Shown: one piece after another, positions 5,856 through 34,432 of the stretch
Layout: each line of letters begins with the position of its first letter
How positions within the stretch are numbered: the first letter of the stretch is position 1
Assembly (NCBI GenBank): GCA_017628395.1
Contig: JAGBZD010000047.1
Location: 1-42,104, forward strand
Origin: Paludibacteraceae bacterium
GTDB taxonomy: Bacteria; Bacteroidota; Bacteroidia; Bacteroidales; Paludibacteraceae
DNA: 42,104 nt
Direction: 5' to 3'
Translations under genes and position numbers: made by a program
Notes under the pieces: generated by a model
What the model saw: the letters and a program-made list of their open reading frames with translations, nothing else
Told to the model about the DNA's origin: nothing
The model's database searches: none

Positions 5856-7610
5856 CTAACAAGGTACAATGAGGTATCCTAATTCCTTCGCCTTACTAAG
5901 AAGATTCATAAATACGGCGGGTTTTCCATTATTTGTAGTAGGCCAATTGCTACTAATCAAGATTTTGGTGTCGCTTAGTGCAATCGTATCATCTAATGTC
6001 TTATCTCCGTAAAAATACACGATACCCTTTTCTGCTTTTATAGACAAATACATGTCATAAGGCATAAACATAACATCCATATTCTTTTGTACAAAGAAAT
6101 CTTTCTTTAATTGTTCATGTGTCAAATTAGGATGCAAACTGAGGTGATGCATCACCAAATCATGTACCAATTGTACCTTCTTTGTATATACTTTTCCATT
6201 AAATTTGTAATTTGATGTATCTCTATTTCGCTTGCCATCAATACGGGGTTTTGAGTCAAATGCTTTCAAGTTGGTCACAGCAGAGAGTGCCATAGTGGAC
6301 TCTACAGTTTCTCCTAATTGCGCATCATTATTCACGATAGCAGCAATCTTGTTCAGCAAGCCAGACACTTGGAAGACGCGGTTGCTCAAGTGGGTCTCTT
6401 TCTGACACATACGGTAGAGGATTTTCTCCCACTCCTCATCAAATTCTTCTGCAGCATTCAGGCTCTCTTGCTCCTCCGCGGTCAGTTTGCGCAATTTGAG
6501 TTTTGCGGCGATGCTTTCATTCCACTGTTTGAAGTCAGGCTCCTCACTCAACTGATTATATATATAAGGATATGCGATTTGCATACAAACGAATGCAAAG
6601 TTCAGTAACTTGTTGCTACTGTCGGTTGGCTCATCGCCCATCAGCTTACGATTAATGATAGATATCAAAGACAAGGTATTGGTCAGACGCTTCAAAGATC
6701 GTGGGTTACATCCTACCGATAGTTGAGCAATCTCAGACAAGTCCTCTGCCAATTGAGCATCATTGAGCTCCTCCTCGTTGAGAAATTCTATTTTCTTCAG
6801 CGCATCTACCAAGAAGGTATTGACATTGTAGGATGCTACAGGCATAGAGAATGGCAATTGGATAATCTTATCAAAGAAAGCACGGAACTCGCGTTCGTTC
6901 TTCTCGGTCAGTTCACCAAATTTAGACTTCAGGCCTTTGATAACCACATCATAGTCAATAGCGAGAATAAAGACGCATTTATCCAAGTCAAAGATATTCT
7001 TCAATAACTCCAATATCTCTACCGCTACAGGTGGATCGATGCGGTCAAGGTCGTCGATATAGAATGTAAAACCTTGTTTAGATGGTTCAGCTGCTAATGC
7101 TTCTTCAATAAGTTTTCCGATTTCGTTTTTCAGTTGCAGGATATCCGATTCAGTACTTGTATCGGTGCTAAATAGCTCGTCCACTAATCCGCCATCAATG
7201 CCTACTGTATTGGCTGCAATCTTCGTTCCAACTGTAGCCATTTTCTTAAAGATACCGCCAATCTTCTTTTTGCTTTCATCCCATTTGTGGGCATTAGGAT
7301 TGAGTGCGCCGATTTGGTTGATACACCCCTCCAAGATACTCATAATGGCTTGGTTGGGGGTTTTCATCAATGAGTATTGCCATGTATTGACCCACACAGG
7401 GAAATAGATAGCGCCGTCTATATCACATAGTTGCCAACGAAGTTGGTTCATTAGCGATGTCTTGCCACTTCCCCATTCGCCTTGTAGGGCAATCGTAATA
7501 GGGGTATTGGTGAGATTGATAAATTCAATCAACGCTTCTTGGTACTTATTGATACCAAACAAATCTTCCTCGGTATATTTACGAGGTACATCAATAATAC
7601 TAGATTTCAT
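5856..7610 (-). CDS. KAP-family P-loop NTPase, copy 1
   Basis: The protein has 584 residues. Walker A is G44-EWGSGKTS and Walker B is FTFYIDDLDR (181-190), the KAP signature D-D-L-D-R. The NTPase core and helical lid run to about 450. KAP NTPases are STAND-related ATPases, often tied to membranes, and known examples include phage-exclusion proteins (PifA). No clear transmembrane insert is seen. The first 453 residues nearly match the neighbouring copy, but the last 131 residues are unrelated to that copy's tail. They hold a helical stretch (VQLVHDLVMHHLSLH) and an alpha/beta segment ending SKAKELGYLIVPC. The gene ends in TAG. An antiphage or membrane-sensing role is inference from family. Confidence 0.85.
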   Translation of the reverse strand: MKSSIIDVPRKYTEEDLFGINKYQEALIEFINLTNTPITIALQGEWGSGKTSLMNQLRWQLCDIDGAIYFPVWVNTWQYSLMKTPNQAIMSILEGCINQIGALNPNAHKWDESKKKIGGIFKKMATVGTKIAANTVGIDGGLVDELFSTDTSTESDILQLKNEIGKLIEEALAAEPSKQGFTFYIDDLDRIDPPVAVEILELLKNIFDLDKCVFILAIDYDVVIKGLKSKFGELTEKNEREFRAFFDKIIQLPFSMPVASYNVNTFLVDALKKIEFLNEEELNDAQLAEDLSEIAQLSVGCNPRSLKRLTNTLSLISIINRKLMGDEPTDSSNKLLNFAFVCMQIAYPYIYNQLSEEPDFKQWNESIAAKLKLRKLTAEEQESLNAAEEFDEEWEKILYRMCQKETHLSNRVFQVSGLLNKIAAIVNNDAQLGETVESTMALSAVTNLKAFDSKPRIDGKRNRDTSNYKFNGKVYTKKVQLVHDLVMHHLSLHPNLTHEQLKKDFFVQKNMDVMFMPYDMYLSIKAEKGIVYFYGDKTLDDTIALSDTKILISSNWPTTNNGKPAVFMNLLSKAKELGYLIVPC

Positions 7611-7638
7611 ATTTTATTGTTTCTATTTTTTCTTTGCA

Positions 7639-7664
7639 GCCAGCGGAAACCCAATCCCGCTGAC
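7639..7664 (-). repeat. Intercistronic hairpin family 1, copy 2
   Basis: The left arm is GCCAGCGGAA, the loop ACCCAA and the right arm TCCCGCTGAC. On the minus-strand RNA the altered base becomes a G-U wobble, so the stem is kept. It sits 8 bases after the second KAP gene stops and 28 bases before the first KAP gene starts. Confidence 0.8.
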
Positions 7665-7672
7665 CTAGAGTA

Positions 7673-9259
7673 TTATTTTCCACCAGCATTGAGCATTGCT
7701 TTTTGCACCGTACTTCTTAGTTGAGAGGTGCGCCATTCTGGCTTAACTTCAATGCCTAATTCCGCTGCTATCTCACGAAGAGCAGGGCTGGCTTTACGAC
7801 AACGCTCGCCATTTTTGTAAACTTCCGCTTTCTTATCTTCTGTGTAAACCACACGCCAGATACCATACGACACGCTCTTACTTTTTCCCTTCTTGGGTGC
7901 AGAATCAAATGCCTTGAGGTTGGTCACAGCAGAGAGCGCCATAGTGGACTCTACGATGTCGCCCAATTGCTCATCATTATTCACGATGGCAACAATCTTA
8001 TTCAGCAAACCTGAAACTTGGAAGACGCGGTTGCTCAAGTGGGTCTCTTTCTGACACATACGATAGAGAATTTTCTCCCACTCCTCATCAAACTCCTCCG
8101 CTGCATTCAGGCTCTCTTGCTCTTCTACGGTCAGTTTGCGCAATTTGAGTTTTGCTGCGATGCTTTCATTCCACTGTTTGAAGTCAGGCTCCTCACTCAA
8201 CTGATTATATATATAAGGATATGCGATTTGCATACATACAAACGCAAAGTTCAGCAGTTTGTTATAGGAATCTGTATCCTCTGCTTCTGACACCTCGCTA
8301 TTGATGATTGAGATGAGTGAGAGGGTATTGGTCAAACGCTTCAATGAGCGAGGGTTGCAGCCCACCGATAGTTGAGCAATCTCTGATAAGTCTTCAGCTA
8401 ATTGAGGATTACTGAGTTCCTCGTCATTGAGAAATTCTATTTTCTTCAGTGCATCTACTAAGAAGGTATTGACATTGTAGGATGCGACTGGCATGGAGAA
8501 TGGCAATTGGATAATCTTGTCGAAGAACGCACGGAACTCGCGTTCGTTTTTCTCGGTTAGTTCACCAAATTTAGACTTAAGACCTTTGATAACTACATCA
8601 TAGTCAATAGCAAGGATAAATACGCATTTATCCAAGTCAAAGATATTCTTCAATAACTCCAATATCTCTACCGCTACAGGTGGATCAATACGGTCAAGGT
8701 CATCAATATAGAAAGTAAAACCCTGTTTAGATGGGTTCGCGATCAATGCCTCATCAATGAGTTTGCCTATCTCATTTTTGAGTTGCAAGACATCGGATTC
8801 GGTACTTGCGTCGGGGCAAAACAATTCGTCCACCAATTTGCCATCAATACCAACAGTATGAGCAGCGATCTTGGTGCCAACGGTCGCCATTTTCTTGAAG
8901 ATACCGCCAATCTTCTTTTTGCTCTCTTCCCATTTGTAGGCGTTGGGGTTGAGGGCGCCAATTTGGTTGATGCAACCCTCCAAGATACTCATGATGGCTT
9001 GAGAAGGGGTCTTCATCAAGGAGTATTGCCAGGTGTTAATCCACACAGGGAAGTAGATTGCGTCCTCGCTATCGCATAGTTCCCAACGAAGTTGGTTCAT
9101 TAGCGATGTTTTGCCACTTCCCCACTCGCCTTGTAGGGCAATCGTGATAGGGGTGTTAGTAAGTTTGATAAACTTGGTCAGTGCTTTTTGGTACTTGTTG
9201 ATACCAAACAAATCTTCCTCGGTATATTTACGAGGTACATCAATAATACTTGACTTCAT
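7673..9259 (-). CDS. KAP-family P-loop NTPase, copy 2 (different C-terminal tail)
   Basis: This 528-residue paralogue nearly matches the downstream KAP protein through residue 453 (same Walker A GEWGSGKTS and Walker B YIDDLDR). It then diverges to a 75-residue basic tail: beta-rich YGIWRVVYTEDKKAEVY and then a helix (ALREIAAELGIEV), a pattern resembling small nucleic-acid-binding or SAP-like modules. The abrupt loss of similarity suggests tandem duplication followed by domain exchange. It follows the broken two-repeat gene with a 184-base gap holding a hairpin. The N-terminus MKSSIIDVPRKYTEEDLFGI is identical in the two copies, which supports the chosen starts. Confidence 0.85.
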   Translation of the reverse strand: MKSSIIDVPRKYTEEDLFGINKYQKALTKFIKLTNTPITIALQGEWGSGKTSLMNQLRWELCDSEDAIYFPVWINTWQYSLMKTPSQAIMSILEGCINQIGALNPNAYKWEESKKKIGGIFKKMATVGTKIAAHTVGIDGKLVDELFCPDASTESDVLQLKNEIGKLIDEALIANPSKQGFTFYIDDLDRIDPPVAVEILELLKNIFDLDKCVFILAIDYDVVIKGLKSKFGELTEKNEREFRAFFDKIIQLPFSMPVASYNVNTFLVDALKKIEFLNDEELSNPQLAEDLSEIAQLSVGCNPRSLKRLTNTLSLISIINSEVSEAEDTDSYNKLLNFAFVCMQIAYPYIYNQLSEEPDFKQWNESIAAKLKLRKLTVEEQESLNAAEEFDEEWEKILYRMCQKETHLSNRVFQVSGLLNKIVAIVNNDEQLGDIVESTMALSAVTNLKAFDSAPKKGKSKSVSYGIWRVVYTEDKKAEVYKNGERCRKASPALREIAAELGIEVKPEWRTSQLRSTVQKAMLNAGGK

Positions 9260-9403
9260 AATTTAGTTTTTTTATTGGACACTTGTGTCCTTCCATTTTT
9301 TTAGAGCTCCCACAAGCTTCGTGAGCGAGTGGGAAGAGCGGAGGAAGTTGTCGCCTAATGACGCAGTCATTCTTTGCGACCTACTTACCGAACGCGAGTG
9401 CAA
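9260..9403 (-). other. Non-coding leader before second KAP gene, structured
   Basis: No convincing gene lies here; a short open frame through it reads across the hairpin and has no protein-like character. It contains inverted repeats: GGACAC/GTGTCC near 9276-9290 and CCCAC/GTGGG near 9308-9332. It is the longest leader in the KAP-barrel series and may fold into a regulatory RNA. Confidence 0.4.
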
Positions 9404-9443: not shown

Positions 9444-10013
9444 TTATTTATATTCGCCTTTCTTACAACCATCTTTTTCACATTCTGCATTGAATGCCGC
9501 TAAAGTTTTATCATCGTCACTGCCGCTAGTATAGTAACGTTTACCCTCACCGGTTGTATAGCATACCTGAGCATACAAGCCAAAAACGGTATCAAATTCT
9601 TTTTCAAGAGTTTTGATTTTCTTATTACCTGCAATGCTGATATCTCCTCCAGAATCTGCACGGCGTACAGAAGCTAAGGTTTTATCTCCAGACAATGGTG
9701 TTTTAGAACTTTCGTTACGCATGTAACTATAATACAAACTCAAACGAAGATATGGGAATTGCTTATTAAATTCTTTACGCAATGTATCAATCTTCTTATT
9801 GCCAGTAACTGAAATTTCTACTGCTTTTTTTGTTACGACCTTCTTTGTTGTAGTCTTAGCAGCTGCTTTCGTAGTCGTCTAAGCAGCTGTCGTCTTCTTT
9901 GCTGTAGTCTTTGTGGTAGCAGCTTTCTTTGTTGTTGATTTTGCAGTTGTGGTCCTTTTTGCTGCGGGCTTAGCTGCGGTTTTCTTTGCAGCAGGTTTCT
10001 TTGTGGTTGCCAT
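9444..10013 (-). pseudogene. Lys/Ala/Thr-rich tail plus two-repeat domain, broken by in-frame TAG
   Basis: From ATG 10013 the frame encodes a histone-H1-like tail of Lys, Ala, Thr and Pro (MATTKKPAAKKTAAKPAAK...). It meets TAG at codon 45 (9879-9881) and then continues in the same frame to TAA 9444. After the amber the tail resumes and leads into two related units, ISVTGNKKIDTLRKEF and ISIAGNKKIKTLEKEF. These are the same units found in the proteins at 14380 and 18004. By comparison with the surrounding Ala-Ala-Lys repeats, the amber is one base away from AAG (Lys). Translation of the domain would need read-through or a TTG start near 9782. TAG ends other genes here, so the code is not obviously altered. 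It may be a recent nonsense mutation, a sequencing error or real recoding. Confidence 0.7.
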
Positions 10014-12444: not shown

Positions 12445-12537
12445 GGATTGCGATTTGAGATTTTCTCTACAATACGTCAAAGAACACTTTTCCTCATTTT
12501 ATCCCTCCCCTTATGGGGAGTTAGGAGAGGTTTGTAA

Positions 12538-12563
12538 GCAGAGGAGCGGTCAAACTCCTCTGC
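12538..12563 (-). repeat. 3' hairpin family 2, copy 1
   Basis: The arms are GCAGAGGAG and CTCCTCTGC, nine perfect pairs, around loop CGGTCAAA. It is preceded by TAA on the plus strand, as in the other copies. It lies 32 bases past the stop of the basic protein gene at 12596. The arms differ from the other copies but remain fully paired. Confidence 0.85.
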
Positions 12564-12595
12564 CTTGTTTATATCCCCATTCGGGGAGAGGGAGT

Positions 12596-13320: not shown

Positions 13321-14268
13321 TTATTCTACCACCACGAACTCGGTGCGACGATTCTCTGGTGCGTTAGGATTCTCTGTGTTCTTAAGTTGACTGCTGCCCA
13401 AACCTTCGTAAGAAAGACGCTCTGCTGCTACACCCTCACGCTCAACGAGGAAATCTACCGCTGCTTTTGCGCGTGCCTCTGAGAGTTTCTGATTGTGGTT
13501 GGCTTCGCCTTCTGCAGAAGTGTGACCCAAAATCTTGAGAGTAAGACCCTCGTTGTCCTTCATCACTTTAGCCAAATCGTGCAATACGAACTTAGCATCT
13601 TCGCTCAATTCTGCTTTACCGAGTTCAAACTCAGCTGCGTTGAAGTTCTTCTCAATCTCAGCGATTTGTTGGATATAGAGGGTGTCGTGTACTACCACGA
13701 TCTTCTCTACCTCTACCACTTGTGGCTCCGCTTTCTTGCCCAAGAGCAAGAAGAGAACTATACCTACCAACACTGCGCCAAGTACAGCCCATACCCATGC
13801 AGGGATGCCTTTCTTAGCTACTGGTACGGGTGGTACATAGCCGTTGAGGTATTCCAATGTGTATTCGCCACGCTTGCCAAAGCCCTTCTCTGCTGCTTCG
13901 TATTTAGCGATTTCAATATCGTACAATTTAGCTTGATCTACAATCTTTTCAAACATCTCTTTGGTCCACATCGAAACGGTGAAAGCGATATCTGTACCAT
14001 CAGCCAATGTTAGATAGTGGTGAGTGCGTTTCCACTCTTCGAGTTGCTTGTCATCAAAGTCGGTTGTTGTGGCTGCAGCCATTTTCTCTTTCTCTGCCAT
14101 GGTTACGAACAAACCAAGGTTGCCTTCGGTTTGTGCAAACAAGCTACGAGGGAAAGCTTTGTTTACATCTTCCAATGTTGCGTGTGGATACATTTTCAAA
14201 TAAGCATCAACGATGCCTAATGCTGCCCATTTTTGGGACTTCGCATAAACGCGTACTTTACTTGCCAT
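13321..14268 (-). CDS. Inner-membrane-anchored OmpA/MotB-like peptidoglycan-binding protein
   Basis: This 315-residue protein has no signal peptide. Residues 1-150 form a soluble N-terminal domain (VRVYAKSQKWAALGIVDAYL, and a helical segment near 100-125). One membrane helix follows (156-177), then a short coiled linker, then an OmpA-like domain (about 208-315) with ILGHTSAEGEANHNQKLSEA and a final N-A-P-E-N-R-R. The topology places the N-terminus in the cytoplasm and the OmpA domain in the periplasm, gripping peptidoglycan. The arginine expected to bind peptidoglycan is present (R266), but the usual Asp of GHTD is Ser251. It is preceded by a pseudoknot-like leader. A cytoplasm-to-wall tether is the likely role. 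Confidence 0.88.
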   Translation of the reverse strand: MASKVRVYAKSQKWAALGIVDAYLKMYPHATLEDVNKAFPRSLFAQTEGNLGLFVTMAEKEKMAAATTTDFDDKQLEEWKRTHHYLTLADGTDIAFTVSMWTKEMFEKIVDQAKLYDIEIAKYEAAEKGFGKRGEYTLEYLNGYVPPVPVAKKGIPAWVWAVLGAVLVGIVLFLLLGKKAEPQVVEVEKIVVVHDTLYIQQIAEIEKNFNAAEFELGKAELSEDAKFVLHDLAKVMKDNEGLTLKILGHTSAEGEANHNQKLSEARAKAAVDFLVEREGVAAERLSYEGLGSSQLKNTENPNAPENRRTEFVVVE

Positions 14269-14300
14269 AATAGTTTTTTTTATTTAATGGTTGTTTTTCT

Positions 14301-14332
14301 GCTCGCAACTTCAGGACTGCGAGCGCTATCCT
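14301..14332 (-). promoter_or_regulatory. Leader pseudoknot element, copy 3
   Basis: On the minus-strand RNA, stem 2 pairs GCUCGCA with UGCGAGC (7 perfect pairs). The AGGAU before it can pair with GUCCU in the loop, giving H-type pseudoknot order. It lies 32 bases before the OmpA start. Confidence 0.65.
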
Positions 14333-14338
14333 TAGTAA

Positions 14339-14364
14339 GCAGGTGGGTGGTCAAACCCACCTGC
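14339..14364 (-). repeat. 3' hairpin family 2, copy 2
   Basis: The arms are GCAGGTGGG and CCCACCTGC, nine perfect pairs, around loop TGGTCAAA. It lies 15 bases after the stop of the two-repeat gene and directly before the pseudoknot element. Confidence 0.85.
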
Positions 14365-14379
14365 CTGATTTGTGGTAAA

Positions 14380-14694
14380 TTATTTACCAGCAGCGCAAAT
14401 AGTAGCACCGTTGTCAGCCAAAGCGCTGTCGTCAGCGTTAGCTACTTGTACGCCAATACCATACATCTCAGCAATCTTCTTCTCGAAGTTACCTACTTGC
14501 ATGTTACCTTTGATTGCGAGCTCACCACCCTTAGCGCCTTCTGCGCGAATAGATGCGAGAGTTGCGTTAGGATCAGCGAAACCGCCTTTGCAAGATGTGC
14601 TCTTGTACACGCGAAGTGTAGCGCCAAAAGCCTCTTTGAACTCTTTGCACAATGTGCCAATTTTCTTGTTGCCAGTCAATTTAATTTCTGCCAT
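14380..14694 (-). CDS. Two-repeat small protein (GNKK-type), minimal member
   Basis: The 104 residues consist only of two copies of one unit. Unit 1 is about 2-50 (IKLTGNKKIGTLCKEFKEAF then GATLRVYK, ending ATLASIR). Unit 2 is about 57-100 (ELAIKGNMQVGNFEKKIAEM then YGIGVQVA, ending SALADNGATI). The order is strand, basic turn, amphipathic helix, strand, acidic loop and a terminal L-A segment, which is suggestive of a beta-grasp-like fold. There is no signal peptide. Two other proteins in this window share the unit, one with an N-terminal extension and one with a Lys-rich tail. No function is known to me. A pseudoknot element precedes it and a family 2 hairpin follows it. Confidence 0.75.
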   Translation of the reverse strand: MAEIKLTGNKKIGTLCKEFKEAFGATLRVYKSTSCKGGFADPNATLASIRAEGAKGGELAIKGNMQVGNFEKKIAEMYGIGVQVANADDSALADNGATICAAGK

Positions 14695-14726
14695 AGTTGT
14701 AAAATTTTAAATAATTAATCAATTAT

Positions 14727-14758
14727 GCCCACAACTTCAGGACTGTGAGCGTTGTCCT
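14727..14758 (-). promoter_or_regulatory. Leader pseudoknot element, copy 2
   Basis: Stem 2 pairs GCUCACA with UGUGGGC (one U-G wobble); stem 1 pairs AGGAC with loop GUCCU perfectly. It lies 32 bases before the two-repeat gene start. Confidence 0.65.
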
Positions 14759-14772
14759 ATGATTGATATGAT

Positions 14773-16305
14773 TTATTCTTCTAACTCTTTGGTGAATAAT
14801 TCTTCAGAGAATAATACAACTGTATCGTCTTGTTTCAATGTGGCTTTTACGCGACGAATATACCACTCTGTAATACGCTTAACACATTTGAGATTTCTCT
14901 TACCGAATTCACACCAAAACATAAGAATACCATATAAAGCACAAATCCACCAAGCCTCAAATAAGAATAAGAAGATAAAGATATCTGCCGAAAGTCTTAC
15001 TGCTAGTTTTATTCTCTTATCACTTTTGTTCTCTTTAAATAGTGTTGCAACCTTGCGCATATACCATTTCCACATCTTCTCTTGCCACTCAAAGCTTTTT
15101 TTACCAAATGATGTCCAAAATAGGATAAGTCCATAAACCCATACAAGCACCGATGCTTCCATTACAAACATACCAATGAATCCGTATGCACATAATCCGA
15201 CCAATAGTTTGCTAATGGAAATTGTTTGAGATTCTTGCTTCTCAGTTAGAGCGTCATCTAAATATACAACTTGTATGTTTGAAGGGAGAGTTTCCTCCAA
15301 AGTGCATTCCACTTCGTTTAGCTCATCTTCGTCATTAAAGATAGAGATTGCCCCTTTTGTATTATGTATTGATATACGTTGGAGTTTATCACACCCAGAA
15401 ATCCAATCAATAGAAAATACTGATCCAAGCGTGTTTGGAAGTTCTATTTCTTCTAGTTTATTACAACCAACAAAGGCTTCCTTTCCAATAGATGTAACTC
15501 CGTTAGGTACGATAAATTTACCGGTCGGTTTATTTAGCTGTGTATTTTGGAGTTCCACAATATTTTTCCCGTTTTCCGTCCTATGAGAATAAATTACCTT
15601 GTTTTCCATTTTGATGTGTGGTGAATTAAGTTCCAAAACTAATGTACCAACGTTAGGTAACTCCGAGAATGCACTACCAGAGATGTTTTTTATTGTTTTA
15701 GGAAGAGAAAGTCGTTTGTACTCTCCATCACTAATAGAGTAAGTTGTTACTTTATGAGTTTTTCCAGTTTCTTGACTAGTAATTTCCTCAGGAATAACAA
15801 TCTCTTTCATGGACTCATCTAACAACATGCATGCATCCACATCTATATCGCCATCTTCCCATTCTGCAATGCTATAATTGATGTCGTTGTAATCTACATC
15901 TTCGCAATCTCCCCACTCTTCGTCATCATCTGCAAAATCATCATCGTCGTTGGTATCTTCTTCTACATCATCTTTAATCTCCTCAACTTCTTCTGCTTCA
16001 ACGGGTGTGCTAACTAGCACTTCTTGTTTTGGCAACCACTCGTAAGATACGATACTTTTAATGTACTCATTGTTATTTGTTCCATTGATGTCCATATCCA
16101 TAAGCACTGTGCCATCATACTTAATGATAAGATGATCTAATTCGAATGTAATTTCTAAAGATTCATAACCATAACGATCGCCATACTCTTGCACTTTTTT
16201 AGGGAGTGCAATTGTTCTGTGTTTTTCACCTTGGCGTGTGTTTACACTTGCCTGTGTGTTAATTCCGTCTGTAGTGTAACGGAGATCCAATTTTGTGTAA
16301 CTCAT
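14773..16305 (-). CDS. BspA-type leucine-rich repeat protein with four membrane helices
   Basis: The start is placed at ATG 16305 (510 residues). The in-frame ATG upstream at 16338 would put a conserved RNA element inside the coding region. The N-terminal ~100 residues are beta-rich. A strongly acidic stretch of Asp and Glu (about 105-140) follows. BspA-like repeats (about 170-330) include GVTSIGKEAFVGCNKLEEIE and GSAFSELPNVGTL. The C-terminus has two homologous membrane units, ASVLVWVYGLILFWTSFGKK and AWWICALYGILMFWCEFGKR, each followed by a basic W-Y-x-R-[KR] helix. There is no signal peptide, so the repeats face the cytoplasm. That is unusual, because BspA repeats are normally surface-exposed. 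Confidence 0.75.
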   Translation of the reverse strand: MSYTKLDLRYTTDGINTQASVNTRQGEKHRTIALPKKVQEYGDRYGYESLEITFELDHLIIKYDGTVLMDMDINGTNNNEYIKSIVSYEWLPKQEVLVSTPVEAEEVEEIKDDVEEDTNDDDDFADDDEEWGDCEDVDYNDINYSIAEWEDGDIDVDACMLLDESMKEIVIPEEITSQETGKTHKVTTYSISDGEYKRLSLPKTIKNISGSAFSELPNVGTLVLELNSPHIKMENKVIYSHRTENGKNIVELQNTQLNKPTGKFIVPNGVTSIGKEAFVGCNKLEEIELPNTLGSVFSIDWISGCDKLQRISIHNTKGAISIFNDEDELNEVECTLEETLPSNIQVVYLDDALTEKQESQTISISKLLVGLCAYGFIGMFVMEASVLVWVYGLILFWTSFGKKSFEWQEKMWKWYMRKVATLFKENKSDKRIKLAVRLSADIFIFLFLFEAWWICALYGILMFWCEFGKRNLKCVKRITEWYIRRVKATLKQDDTVVLFSEELFTKELEE

Positions 16306-16324
16306 AATTGATAGATTTTTATTT

Positions 16325-16356
16325 GCCCACAACTTCAAGACTGTGAGCGTTGTCCT
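16325..16356 (-). promoter_or_regulatory. Leader pseudoknot element, copy 1
   Basis: Stem 2 pairs GCUCACA with UGUGGGC; stem 1 pairs AGGAC with loop GUCUU through one G-U wobble. It lies 19 bases before the leucine-rich-repeat gene start. Confidence 0.65.
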
Positions 16357-17933: not shown

Positions 17934-17966
17934 TGATAGCGGAAGGATAGAGTTTAATTTTAGTAA

Positions 17967-17992
17967 GCATAGGAGCGATCAAACTCCTATGC
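17967..17992 (-). repeat. 3' hairpin family 2, copy 3
   Basis: The arms are GCATAGGAG and CTCCTATGC, nine perfect pairs, around loop CGATCAAA. It lies 11 bases after the stop of the two-repeat gene at 18004. Confidence 0.85.
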
Positions 17993-18003
17993 CTGAGGGG
18001 GAT

Positions 18004-18366
18004 TTACTCGCCGCGGGAAGCTTGTCCGATGGTGAGTTTGTTGTCCACGCAAGTCTTACCTGCAGGATCTTTGATTTGTACGGTAAGACCATACATCTCG
18101 TCAAAGAGTTTCTCTGCATCACCTACTTTCATAGACGCTTTAATCTTCAACTCGCCTGCAGCGGCAGTCTTCACGTCCTTGCTGGTCTTTTGGTTGAGTT
18201 GGTTGAGCGTCAAATCTCCATCAGCCAATTGCTTGCCTTTGTAGATAGCCAAAGTGCAGCCAAAAGCTTTCTTGAAGTCAGCACAAATAGTTTTTACCTT
18301 CTTGTTTGGTGCCACAGCAAACTCCGCGTTCGTAAAGTGGTCTTTGATTGAATTTAAAAGTCCCAT
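18004..18366 (-). CDS. Two-repeat small protein (GNKK-type) with N-terminal extension
   Basis: This 120-residue protein begins MGLLNSIKDHF, possibly an amphipathic membrane-touching helix. Unit 1 is about 15-58 (FAVAPNKKVKTICADFKKAF then GCTLAIYKG). Unit 2 is about 71-116 (ELKIKASMKVGDAEKLFDEM then YGLTVQIKD). The spacing matches the 104-residue protein at 14380 closely enough to call them paralogues. There is no signal peptide. It follows the 55-residue basic gene by 47 bases and carries a family 2 hairpin after its stop. It is probably a structural or scaffold component; no function is known to me. Confidence 0.72.
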   Translation of the reverse strand: MGLLNSIKDHFTNAEFAVAPNKKVKTICADFKKAFGCTLAIYKGKQLADGDLTLNQLNQKTSKDVKTAAAGELKIKASMKVGDAEKLFDEMYGLTVQIKDPAGKTCVDNKLTIGQASRGE

Positions 18367-30953: not shown

Positions 30954-30983
30954 ATGATCTGTTTTTTAATTTTCTGTTTTTTT

Positions 30984-31221
30984 TGGCGGCCGGCTGCCGG
31001 GGGCTGGGGAGCCATTTCTTGTTTTGGGCGGCCGGCTGCCAGGGGCTGGGGGCCCATTTCTTGTTTTTTGGCGGCCGGCTGCCGGCGGCTGGGGGCCCAT
31101 TTCTTGTTTTTGGCGGCCGGCTGCCGGGGGCTAGGGGCCCATTTTTTTTTGGCGGCCGGCTACCGGGAGCTGGGGGCCATTTCTTGTTTTTTGGCGACCG
31201 GGAGCCGGCGGCCGGGGACCC
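30984..31221. repeat. Six ~42-base GC-rich tandem repeats between waaA and hisS
   Basis: Each unit opens GGCGGCCGGCTGCC, continues GGGGGCTGGGGGCCC and ends with ATTTCTTGTTTTTT. Copies begin near 30984, 31027, 31070, 31112, 31151 and 31193; the last is divergent and abuts the waaA stop. Each GC block is self-complementary (GCCGGC, GGGCCC) and is followed by a T-run on the plus strand. Confidence 0.9.
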
Positions 31222-32421
31222 TTAAAAGATTTCCCGATAAATCTTCTCCGTGGCGCCGCACTCGCTTTGAACATAGCTGGCTGCGGCTTGTCCCATGACC
31301 TGTTGCTGGTCAAATGCGCAGTCGAGTGCCGCTGCCAGTTCGCGGTAGTTCTTCACGCTGATTGCCGCTCCTGCCTCTTGCAGTCCTTGCGCTTCGCGGA
31401 ACTTCTTCCAACGCGGTCCGAACACCACAGGCATGCCATATACTGCCGCTTCCAGCGTGTTGTGAATCCCCACGCCAAAACCACCGCCTATGTATGCTAC
31501 CGCACCGTAGCGGTAGATAGAGGACAACAATCCCATCGTATCCACCAGCAGTACGCGCGCCATGGACACACTCATGGGAGAAGCCTCGCTGTAGCGCACA
31601 TAGCGTCCCTCGAAATACTGGAAGATTTGTTGCAAATGGTTCTCATGCAATTCGTGCGGCACCAATATCAAGCGTATATCTTCGCGTTCTGATACATAGC
31701 GTGCGAGCATCTGCTCTTCTTCGGGCCATGTGCTACCTGCCACCAATACGCGCGTCTTTTCTCCTGCGAACATTTGCACGACAGGCAGTTCTTTGGCTGC
31801 CGAACGCACTTCGGTCACGCGGTCAAAGCGCGTATCACCAGCCACCGTCACGGGGTCTATGCCATAGCGCAATAACAATTGTGCTGAAGCCTGGTCTTGC
31901 ACATAGATATGCGTAAAGCAATGCAGCAATCGACGATAGAGAGCACCCCAAGGTCGGAAGAACAATTGCTTAGGACGGAAGATGGCGGAAATGAGGTAAG
32001 TGGGGATATTCTGTTTTTTCAGGCGCAGCAGGTAAGCAGGCCAAAATTCATATTTAACGAATACCACCATTTCTGGTTGCAATGCGTGTAGCCATTTTTT
32101 GGCATTGCGCTTGGTAGCGAAAGGAAGGTAGAGGACTTTGTCCACCTTGTCGTAATCCTTGCGCATCTCATAGCCCGAGGAGGAGAAGAAAGTCAGCACG
32201 ATTTTGCGCGCGGTACGATTCTCGCGCAAGCGCTCAATGATAGGGCGCACCTGCTCAAATTCTCCAACGGATGCCACATGAATCCACAACACGGGTGCAG
32301 TAACAGCCGCACGCCATTCTTGCAGCGCAGTGATTGCCTCGCGTTGCCCTTTGACTATTTTCTTCGCTTTGCTATGCCCGAAAAGGGCCGCCAATCGTAG
32401 TATCCAAAAATATATAAACAT
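31222..32421 (-). CDS. waaA: 3-deoxy-D-manno-octulosonic acid (Kdo) transferase
   Basis: The protein has 399 residues from ATG 32421. This start is chosen because the promoter's -7 box (32466-32473) lies inside the longer reading frame. A short hydrophobic N-terminal anchor (MFIYFWILRLAALFG) is followed by two GT-B-fold halves. The N-terminal half has HVASVGEFEQ with catalytic Glu54 and YEFWPAYLLR. The C-terminal half has GDTRFDRV, VLVAGSTWPEEEQML and GGFGVGIHNTLEAAVYGMPV, the CMP-Kdo binding region. It attaches Kdo to lipid A on the inner face of the cytoplasmic membrane. It is transcribed away from tnaA. Confidence 0.96.
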   Translation of the reverse strand: MFIYFWILRLAALFGHSKAKKIVKGQREAITALQEWRAAVTAPVLWIHVASVGEFEQVRPIIERLRENRTARKIVLTFFSSSGYEMRKDYDKVDKVLYLPFATKRNAKKWLHALQPEMVVFVKYEFWPAYLLRLKKQNIPTYLISAIFRPKQLFFRPWGALYRRLLHCFTHIYVQDQASAQLLLRYGIDPVTVAGDTRFDRVTEVRSAAKELPVVQMFAGEKTRVLVAGSTWPEEEQMLARYVSEREDIRLILVPHELHENHLQQIFQYFEGRYVRYSEASPMSVSMARVLLVDTMGLLSSIYRYGAVAYIGGGFGVGIHNTLEAAVYGMPVVFGPRWKKFREAQGLQEAGAAISVKNYRELAAALDCAFDQQQVMGQAAASYVQSECGATEKIYREIF

Positions 32422-34173: not shown

Positions 34174-34183
34174 AGGGGCAGCC

Positions 34184-34432
34184 GGCATCTGGCGGCTGGC
34201 GTCCAGCGTTTGGCAGCTGGCGGATGGGAGCTGGGATTGGGCAGCCGGCGGCTGGCGGATGAGAGCCAGCATTTGGCAACCGGCATCCGGCATCTGGCGT
34301 CCAGCGGCTGGTGTCTGGCGGATGGGAGCTGGGATTGGGCAGCCGGCTTCCGGCGGCTGGGGGCCAGCATTTGGCGGCCGGCATCTGGCGGCTGGGGGCC
34401 AGCGTGGCGGCTGGGAGCCAATTAACCAGCAG
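34184..34432. repeat. GC-rich GGC-repeat array beside the giant gene
   Basis: About 250 bases are built from GGCNNCYGGC words. The block GGCGGATGGGAGCTGGGATT (then GGGCAGCCGGC) appears twice, near 34221 and 34318. The same words (CCGGCATCCGGC, TCTGGC) occur at 28916-28937 in the DoxX start region. There is no coding evidence, although both strands stay open by composition. Confidence 0.8.

Follow-up and report, generated by a model that had tools for sequence, protein, structure and literature searches.

Three intercistronic leader copies in a Paludibacteraceae contig belong to a family of short RNAs that likely fold as H-type pseudoknots

The subject of this study is a short leader sequence, here called the type A element, that occurs three times on the minus strand of a 42,104-nucleotide (nt) contig (JAGBZD010000047.1, assembly GCA_017628395.1) of a Paludibacteraceae bacterium; this whole stretch is referred to as the window. 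The best explanation, which we hold with moderate confidence, is that the element would act in cis as a sense-strand RNA leader, folded as an H-type pseudoknot from a 5-base-pair (bp) stem (S1) and a 7-bp stem (S2), and would give each gene equipped with it its own control through a trans-acting factor. Type A is a real RNA element, kin in kind to the leaders known as DUF805b (Rfam RF02914, clan CL00115), and, judged by its relatives, it is not a local duplication. Comparison of sequences establishes its position, the 7-bp stem, its gene specificity and its exchange with DUF805b; a trans-acting factor, and translation as the target, are what we infer.

An earlier sequence-only reading had described the three copies as lying 19-32 nt before three unrelated coding starts, and this was borne out (Table 1). 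The three genes are mutually dissimilar, encoding a protein with an LRR_5 match, a protein of 104 amino acids (aa) without a Pfam match, and an OmpA-domain protein, and they are probably transcribed as a single mRNA. Each copy forms 7 + 5 pairs with loops of 3, 0 and 5 nt, in agreement with the H-type layout with 3-nt and 5-nt loops that had been proposed, and the changes from A-U to G-C and from U-G to U-A were also recovered, these falling in the 7-bp stem, whereas the 5-bp stem shows nothing but wobbles. On the minus strand, copy 1 reads AGGACAACGCTCACAGTCTTGAAGTTGTGGGC, copy 2 is the same except that it has GTCCT, and copy 3 reads AGGATAGCGCTCGCAGTCCTGAAGTTGCGAGC. When up to 3 mismatches were allowed, a 32-nt degenerate pattern matched the window three times, only at these copies, and had no match in 100 shuffles, and a 24-nt core matched the 2.41-Mb assembly (81% complete) three times, always inside the window. 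Three copies alone cannot separate a fold from a duplication; the relatives decide.

Two alignments of relatives were used, one of 30 copies (A4) and one of 35 (A6, which adds L186, L078, L202, L200 and L233 to A4). The counts exclude L053, L009 and the 11-bit matches; L233 was counted in the 35-copy tests and not in the 30-copy test. The layout of the 35 aligned copies is S1a (5 nt), L1 (2-3), S2a (7), S1b (5), L3 (5-6) and S2b (7), with S2a abutting S1b without an unpaired base between them, and the consensus arms of S1 are AGGAY and GUCCU. In the 30-copy alignment, 99.2% of 360 cells were paired, and 13 cells were changed on both sides against 3.7 after shuffling (standard deviation 1.5; 0 of 500 shuffles); the corresponding figures for the 35-copy alignment were 99.0% of 420 cells and 20 double-changed cells against 5.8 (standard deviation 1.8; 0 of 500 shuffles). 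Control registers, slid along the alignment, paired in only 32-47% of cells. The copy at L186, from another family, carries GCUUUCA/UGAAAGC in S2, with three pairs changed on both sides relative to the majority. When phylogeny was taken into account with a tree-based null (120 simulations), two S2 pairs ranked first among 741 column pairs and a third ranked sixth; with the test restricted to the 12 proposed pairs, the same two gave expectation values (E) of about 0.013 and 0.016. The 7-bp stem is thus demonstrated by sequence change. G-U pairs occupy 32 of 238 S2 cells, and since these would be A-C on the opposite strand, the fold belongs to the sense-strand RNA and not to a DNA palindrome. 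Folding of the opposite strand would be poorer, which makes the sense RNA the probable acting molecule.

The evidence for S1 is of a different kind. Its arms are complementary in 174 of 175 cells of the 35-copy alignment and are almost invariant, and the tree-based test yields nothing for S1 because it hardly varies. By parsimony there were six changes, five of which preserve a standard pair, which lends weak support. S1 pairing is therefore compatible with the data, not proven by them, and the H-type pseudoknot as a whole is likely. The question raised earlier, whether relatives keep the sequence and not the pairing, accordingly has an answer in two parts: in the 7-bp stem pairing is kept as the sequence changes, and the 5-bp stem is without a double change.

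Relatives were sought with a covariance model (R1) built from 10 copies and containing only the 7-bp stem; in searches of more than 40 genomes stricter filters applied, which lose weak matches. Within the genus there were 30 matches in 23 of 178 genomes, all 30 with a plausible start codon 19-38 nt downstream, so that further copies before genes, whose absence would have pointed to a duplication, do exist. Counting paralogues, the family of the 104-aa protein was present in 28 of the 178 genomes, and 22 of these were among the 23 that bear the leader. In the sole leader genome outside the 28, G066, the copy precedes an OmpA-type gene and the contig is 5.7 kb long; one further genome (G102) has a degenerate copy. 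Of 101 genus genomes searched by pattern with 3 mismatches, 8 had a match, and a reversed control pattern matched 2, so lone 3-mismatch matches were not trusted; L009, from this search, was judged to be chance.

Across the family, the same model R1 matched 25 of 358 genomes, two of them outside the genus. One of these, L052, is real, and the other, L053, was judged to be chance (it lacks S1a and lies 82 nt before a 318-aa frame). In a search of 15 chosen genomes with model R2 (E up to 0.5), 6 had a match, of which L052 and L078 were credible and four were rejected after inspection of the sequence. At the level of the order, R2 (E up to 0.1) matched 11 of 295 genomes; both stems were kept in the window's own genome, L186 and L078, and the 8 others were rejected by eye because both stems were not kept. 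Outside the family, two credible copies thus came up among the 295 order genomes. The protein behind the L186 copy has 46 aa and two CxxC motifs, zinc-ribbon-like by eye; that behind the L078 copy is Lys-rich and shares its domain with the 104-aa family. A phylum search of 198 genomes with model R3 matched only the window's own genome. Nor was there a match outside L078's own genome when 20 genomes of its family were searched with R3, or outside L186's own when R2 was applied to 3 genomes of its family.

A narrow-pattern scan of genome contigs gave 10 loci in other phyla or groups, with 3-6 of 7 S2 pairs, all judged to be chance, including L015 (S1 5/5 and S2 6/7, inside a 394-aa frame) and L013 (S1 5/5, S2 4/7, inside short frames). 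The same narrow pattern had 0 matches in viral contigs. The S1 and loop patterns had seven matches in viral contigs; S2 pairing was 7/7 in one and 3-5/7 in six, so the S1 and loop pattern does not by itself force S2 to pair. On one viral contig, L233 (1713-1744, minus strand) has both stems perfect; U7 comes next, and a Shine-Dalgarno-like AGGAGGU lies further along. It may be a terminator, a chance match or a distant relative. In the other 34 copies no U run, the hallmark of an intrinsic terminator, directly follows S2b.

The placement of these 34 copies is regular. The spacer to the start codon is 19-40 nt long (median 33) and 86% A+T, and the previous stop codon is close upstream, the distance having a median of 8 nt and not exceeding 14 nt for 17 of 28 measurable copies. 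The window and 40 further loci hold 82 open frames with the 104-aa domain, of which 27 have a type A leader, 4 have DUF805b, 49 have neither and 2 have no usable ATG. Within the genus, 22 of 23 genes of the 104-aa class carry the leader (one of the 22, at L200, is degenerate), and among the MGLLN paralogue class, counted over all loci, 0 of 27 do, so the leader is tied to particular downstream genes. The remaining 7 of the 34 copies precede OmpA-type (4), LRR-type (1), another MSCTKL-type (1) and CxxC (1) genes. TANNTTTG, considered as a possible promoter, was found within 70 nt upstream of only 1 of 34 type A and 1 of 30 DUF805b copies, which gives no support to that idea.

The 104-aa family itself offers few clues: its profile had no PDB match, two Pfam hits (E 0.07-0.1) were confined to single members, two NCBIfam hits for the 104-aa protein were far below cut-off, and P0001 had no match among phage or plasmid sequences. 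Elsewhere in the window (9444-10013, minus strand), a 104-aa-like domain is preceded by a Lys/Thr/Ala-rich, histone H1-like tail, and in this genome an in-frame stop separates the parts; relatives have proteins in which tail and domain run on uninterrupted.

Several observations weigh against this reading of the element. S1 has no double change at all, its variable pairs differing on one side only, and AGGAY and GUCCU may instead be recognised as sequence, without pairing. Only four pairs have any double change, all in S2, and shuffles gave as many in 153 of 500 cases with 35 copies and 68 of 500 with 30. While the phylogeny-aware check of covariation placed two S2 pairs first, their E values over all 741 pairs were 0.83 and 1.0, not below 0.05. 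Single pairs are broken in S2 at L049, L044 and L200, and in S1 at L038. For the window copies, the nested hairpin alone has a predicted energy of -7.7 to -10.1 kcal/mol, with S1 stacks of -7.3 to -10.0; the hairpin is thus predicted to be stable on its own, and the pseudoknot need not form constantly. The element is rare outside the genus, and one 104-aa gene within it, at L210, has no leader, the copy at that locus preceding the neighbouring paralogue.

What the sequence-only reading had not considered is that related genes of other genera can have a different RNA at this position. Upstream of such genes in other genera and families lies GGA..GCCGAAAAUCC..GAGUAGGC, which Rfam calls DUF805b (curated cut-off 35.6 bits); the orthology of the genes behind it was judged by likeness, not by tree. 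Among the four frames of the 104-aa domain class with this leader, L057/L223 and L061/L225 score above the cut-off, L055/L222 reaches 35.1 bits, and L232 was recognised by pattern only; the five DUF805b copies that were scored ranged from 35.1 to 46.5 bits. DUF805b is far from confined to these genes. Its exact pattern occurs in 166 of 358 family genomes, five times in the window's own genome, and the pattern was also found in 41 viral-contig stretches; an ATG lies 17-28 nt downstream in 71 of 76 listed copies (some being the same element twice), before many unlike proteins. The pair flanking GGA/UCC covaries, with 42 of 54 Watson-Crick against 16.9 after shuffling (0 of 10,000), by a shuffle that ignores relatedness. 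In three genomes the two RNAs are neighbours on the same strand, no more than about 450 nt apart (L142/L214, L202 and L141/L200, the last with a degenerate type A copy). Loci with DUF805b leaders, which are common in these genomes, include L031, L055, L057, L061 and L087-L157.

The two leaders are alike in several respects. Both are read as cis-regulatory leaders of about 35 nt in which 5' GGA can pair with UCC (S1), both lie a short distance from the start codon, both occupy the same place before related 104-aa genes, and the GCC...GGC of DUF805b could pair in a manner compatible with an H-type fold. That possible second stem is, however, short and absent from the Rfam structure line (covariance models cannot hold pseudoknots), whereas S2 of type A has 7 bp and directly abuts S1b. 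DUF805b also has GAAAA before UCC and GAGUA before GGC, blocks that type A lacks, and by reading, GCCGAAAAUCC and GAGUAGG are absent from the three window copies. A GCCGAAAATCC-type pattern had no match in the window. Nor did RF02914 match the window with E set to at most 1, or positions 14280-14800, where copies 2 and 3 lie, with E set to at most 10. R3 applied to 30 DUF805b loci gave strong matches only at the two neighbouring type A copies. From these comparisons, we read type A and DUF805b as leaders of like function that have been exchanged before related genes; common descent is possible. A bolder proposal, which we offer tentatively and think rather doubtful, is that they are pseudoknot leaders unlike in sequence yet exchangeable, whose shape, and not their sequence, would be read by one conserved factor of these bacteria that sets the output of single genes within operons. 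If true, a shared factor would explain the orphan DUF805b class, in hosts and viral contigs, as well as type A.

That type A represents a new family, as first suggested, agrees with Rfam release 15, in which no model fits the leader in the window, in 14280-14800 or in the L230 copy region (copy 1 was scanned at E up to 1 only, copies 2 and 3 also at E up to 10). Sub-threshold matches over copy 3 on the opposite strand to SNORA57 and flavi_FSE (11 bits, where the cut-offs are 40 and 43) were rejected, as were six similar ones near the L230 copy. In the literature searched, no paper naming DUF805b was among the matches listed, and papers with 'DUF805' were, by title, not about RNA. For Rfam 15 and the literature searched, type A is without earlier description.

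Control of translation by a trans-acting factor is the first choice of mechanism, and the most likely; translational control or a shared binding site had also been proposed by the sequence-only reading. The element sits between the genes of a run, often a few bases past the previous stop codon, and leaves a 19-40-nt A/U-rich single strand before the start codon. The length of this spacer is about equal to the upstream reach of a bound 30S subunit on mRNA. A factor, perhaps a product of the operon, would most likely read the pseudoknot and alter the access of ribosomes to the A/U-rich stretch, or the stability of that stretch; a pseudoknot at the edge of the 30S subunit would be well placed for a factor whose role is to block ribosomes or recruit them. 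A design model may be the leader of T4 gene 32, where an H-type pseudoknot nucleates cooperative binding of the gene product, which represses translation. There, too, an unstructured, A/U-rich stretch separates the pseudoknot from the start codon. The leader would do the same kind of job as DUF805b, which replaces it before related genes in other genera.

The main rival is an intercistronic processing or stability element, in which the pseudoknot would be a road-block protecting the 5' end that cleavage of the operon mRNA creates, and so give each cistron its own half-life, with a GC-rich hairpin just upstream protecting the 3' end of the preceding cistron. The frequent closeness of the element to the previous stop codon would suit this, as would a 30-nt hairpin lying a few nt before the pseudoknot at 5 of 34 copies by pattern (window copy 3 among them), and additionally by eye at L205. 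Most of the 34 copies, however, are without such a hairpin, the leader is selective for the gene behind it (22 of 23 in one class, 0 of 27 in the other), and DUF805b stands at a similar place before many unrelated genes, viral contigs included; we regard this explanation as unlikely, if worth serious attention. Dispersal of a functionless local duplication or small mobile repeat could account for three copies within 2.1 kb, but it is contradicted by pairing-preserving change across genera and families, by the steady place before start codons and by the lack of any other copy in the assembly within 3 mismatches, and is highly improbable.

The preQ1-I riboswitch is an H-type pseudoknot of about 34 nt in leader position, and type A, at 32-33 nt with invariant loop bases, resembles it in size, topology and position. 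A small-molecule riboswitch of this kind is nevertheless improbable: the genes downstream are OmpA, LRR or uncharacterised, none clearly of biosynthesis or transport and none seen to be queuosine-related, the Rfam matches include no riboswitch, preQ1-I or other, and the start region of type A lies outside the fold, unlike that of preQ1-I. We likewise consider it quite improbable that the AGGA of S1 is a hidden Shine-Dalgarno-like or standby site, exposed to the ribosome when S1 opens. S1a does read AGGAY, most DUF805b copies begin GGAG, and, according to one study, Bacteroidia ribosomes keep but sequester their anti-Shine-Dalgarno sequence, those lacking bS21 using strong Shine-Dalgarno sequences (PMC9976891); yet the case published there requires exceptionally strong pairing (PMC9976891), and the AGGA of type A is more than 45 nt from the start codon, beyond the ordinary range.

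Table 1. Type A leader copies, the genes behind them and adjacent features, in window positions.
Feature	Span	Strand	Details
Leader copy 1	16325..16356	(-)	S1a 16356-16352, L1 16351-16349, S2a 16348-16342, S1b 16341-16337, L3 16336-16332, S2b 16331-16325; ATG 16305, spacer 19 nt
Leader copy 2	14727..14758	(-)	S1a 14758-14754, L1 14753-14751, S2a 14750-14744, S1b 14743-14739, L3 14738-14734, S2b 14733-14727; ATG 14694, spacer 32 nt
Leader copy 3	14301..14332	(-)	S1a 14332-14328, L1 14327-14325, S2a 14324-14318, S1b 14317-14313, L3 14312-14308, S2b 14307-14301; ATG 14268, spacer 32 nt
Gene after copy 1	14773..16305	(-)	510-aa protein, LRR_5 (BspA-type) Pfam match
Gene after copy 2	14380..14694	(-)	104-aa protein (P0001), no Pfam match
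Gene after copy 3	13321..14268	(-)	315-aa protein (P0002), C-terminal OmpA domain
Paralogue of 104-aa protein	18004..18366	(-)	P0003, 120 aa, same gene run, without leader
AU-rich near-palindrome	14711..14726	(-)	directly after copy 2; 6-bp stem, GAUU loop; read by eye
GC-rich 30-nt hairpin	14336..14365	(-)	GGC..UUGACC..GCUUA; ends 3 nt before copy 3

Two other small elements accompany the leader (Table 1). At the place of the AU-rich near-palindrome, relatives read, by eye, AUAAUU-GAUC-AAUUAU or AUAAAU-GAUC-AUUUAU. By the same inspection, in 22 of 23 cases where a gene of the 104-aa class bears the leader, it directly follows the pseudoknot, once with a mismatch (L195 is without it); it does so at the L210 paralogue too, and it precedes 0 of 4 OmpA-type genes. 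It may be an RNA hairpin or a DNA site. The GC-rich 30-nt hairpin is a second repeated intercistronic element, outside the pseudoknot. Its form is GGC..stem..UUGA..stem..GCUUA, the stem varying in sequence and remaining largely paired, with no U run, and 27 distinct sequences of it (some nested) were listed from the window and 40 loci. Similar hairpins occur on the minus strand within 17960-17994 and 12531-12565. A tight pattern gave one viral-contig match, and no Rfam match was found at the hairpin at E up to 1.

Repeats of other kinds were also seen in the window. Two tandem KAP-family NTPase genes (5856-9259, minus strand) are 90% and 86% identical over two 300-nt stretches, and a 35-nt repeat follows each of them and recurs at 9403. 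The gene at 7673-9259, the only one of the pair examined with PADLOC, had matches to PifA, PDC-S20 and QatA. GC-rich short repeats of GGCGGCCGGC and similar units lie at 30979-31229 and 34177-34407.

The scope of the finding is narrow, being mostly one genus and one gene neighbourhood. Within it, a structured leader RNA is added that the models of Rfam release 15 miss, with enough pairing-preserving change for modelling. By position and target genes it is connected to the orphan DUF805b RNA, related genes using either leader and a few gene runs both. A study of Flavobacterium johnsoniae describes Bacteroidetes as naturally without Shine-Dalgarno sequences, and initiation in that species, where they are lacking, as tuned by mRNA structure together with bases upstream of the start codon (PMC6847099). 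The type A leader bears on how single genes of an operon may be tuned in this group of bacteria.

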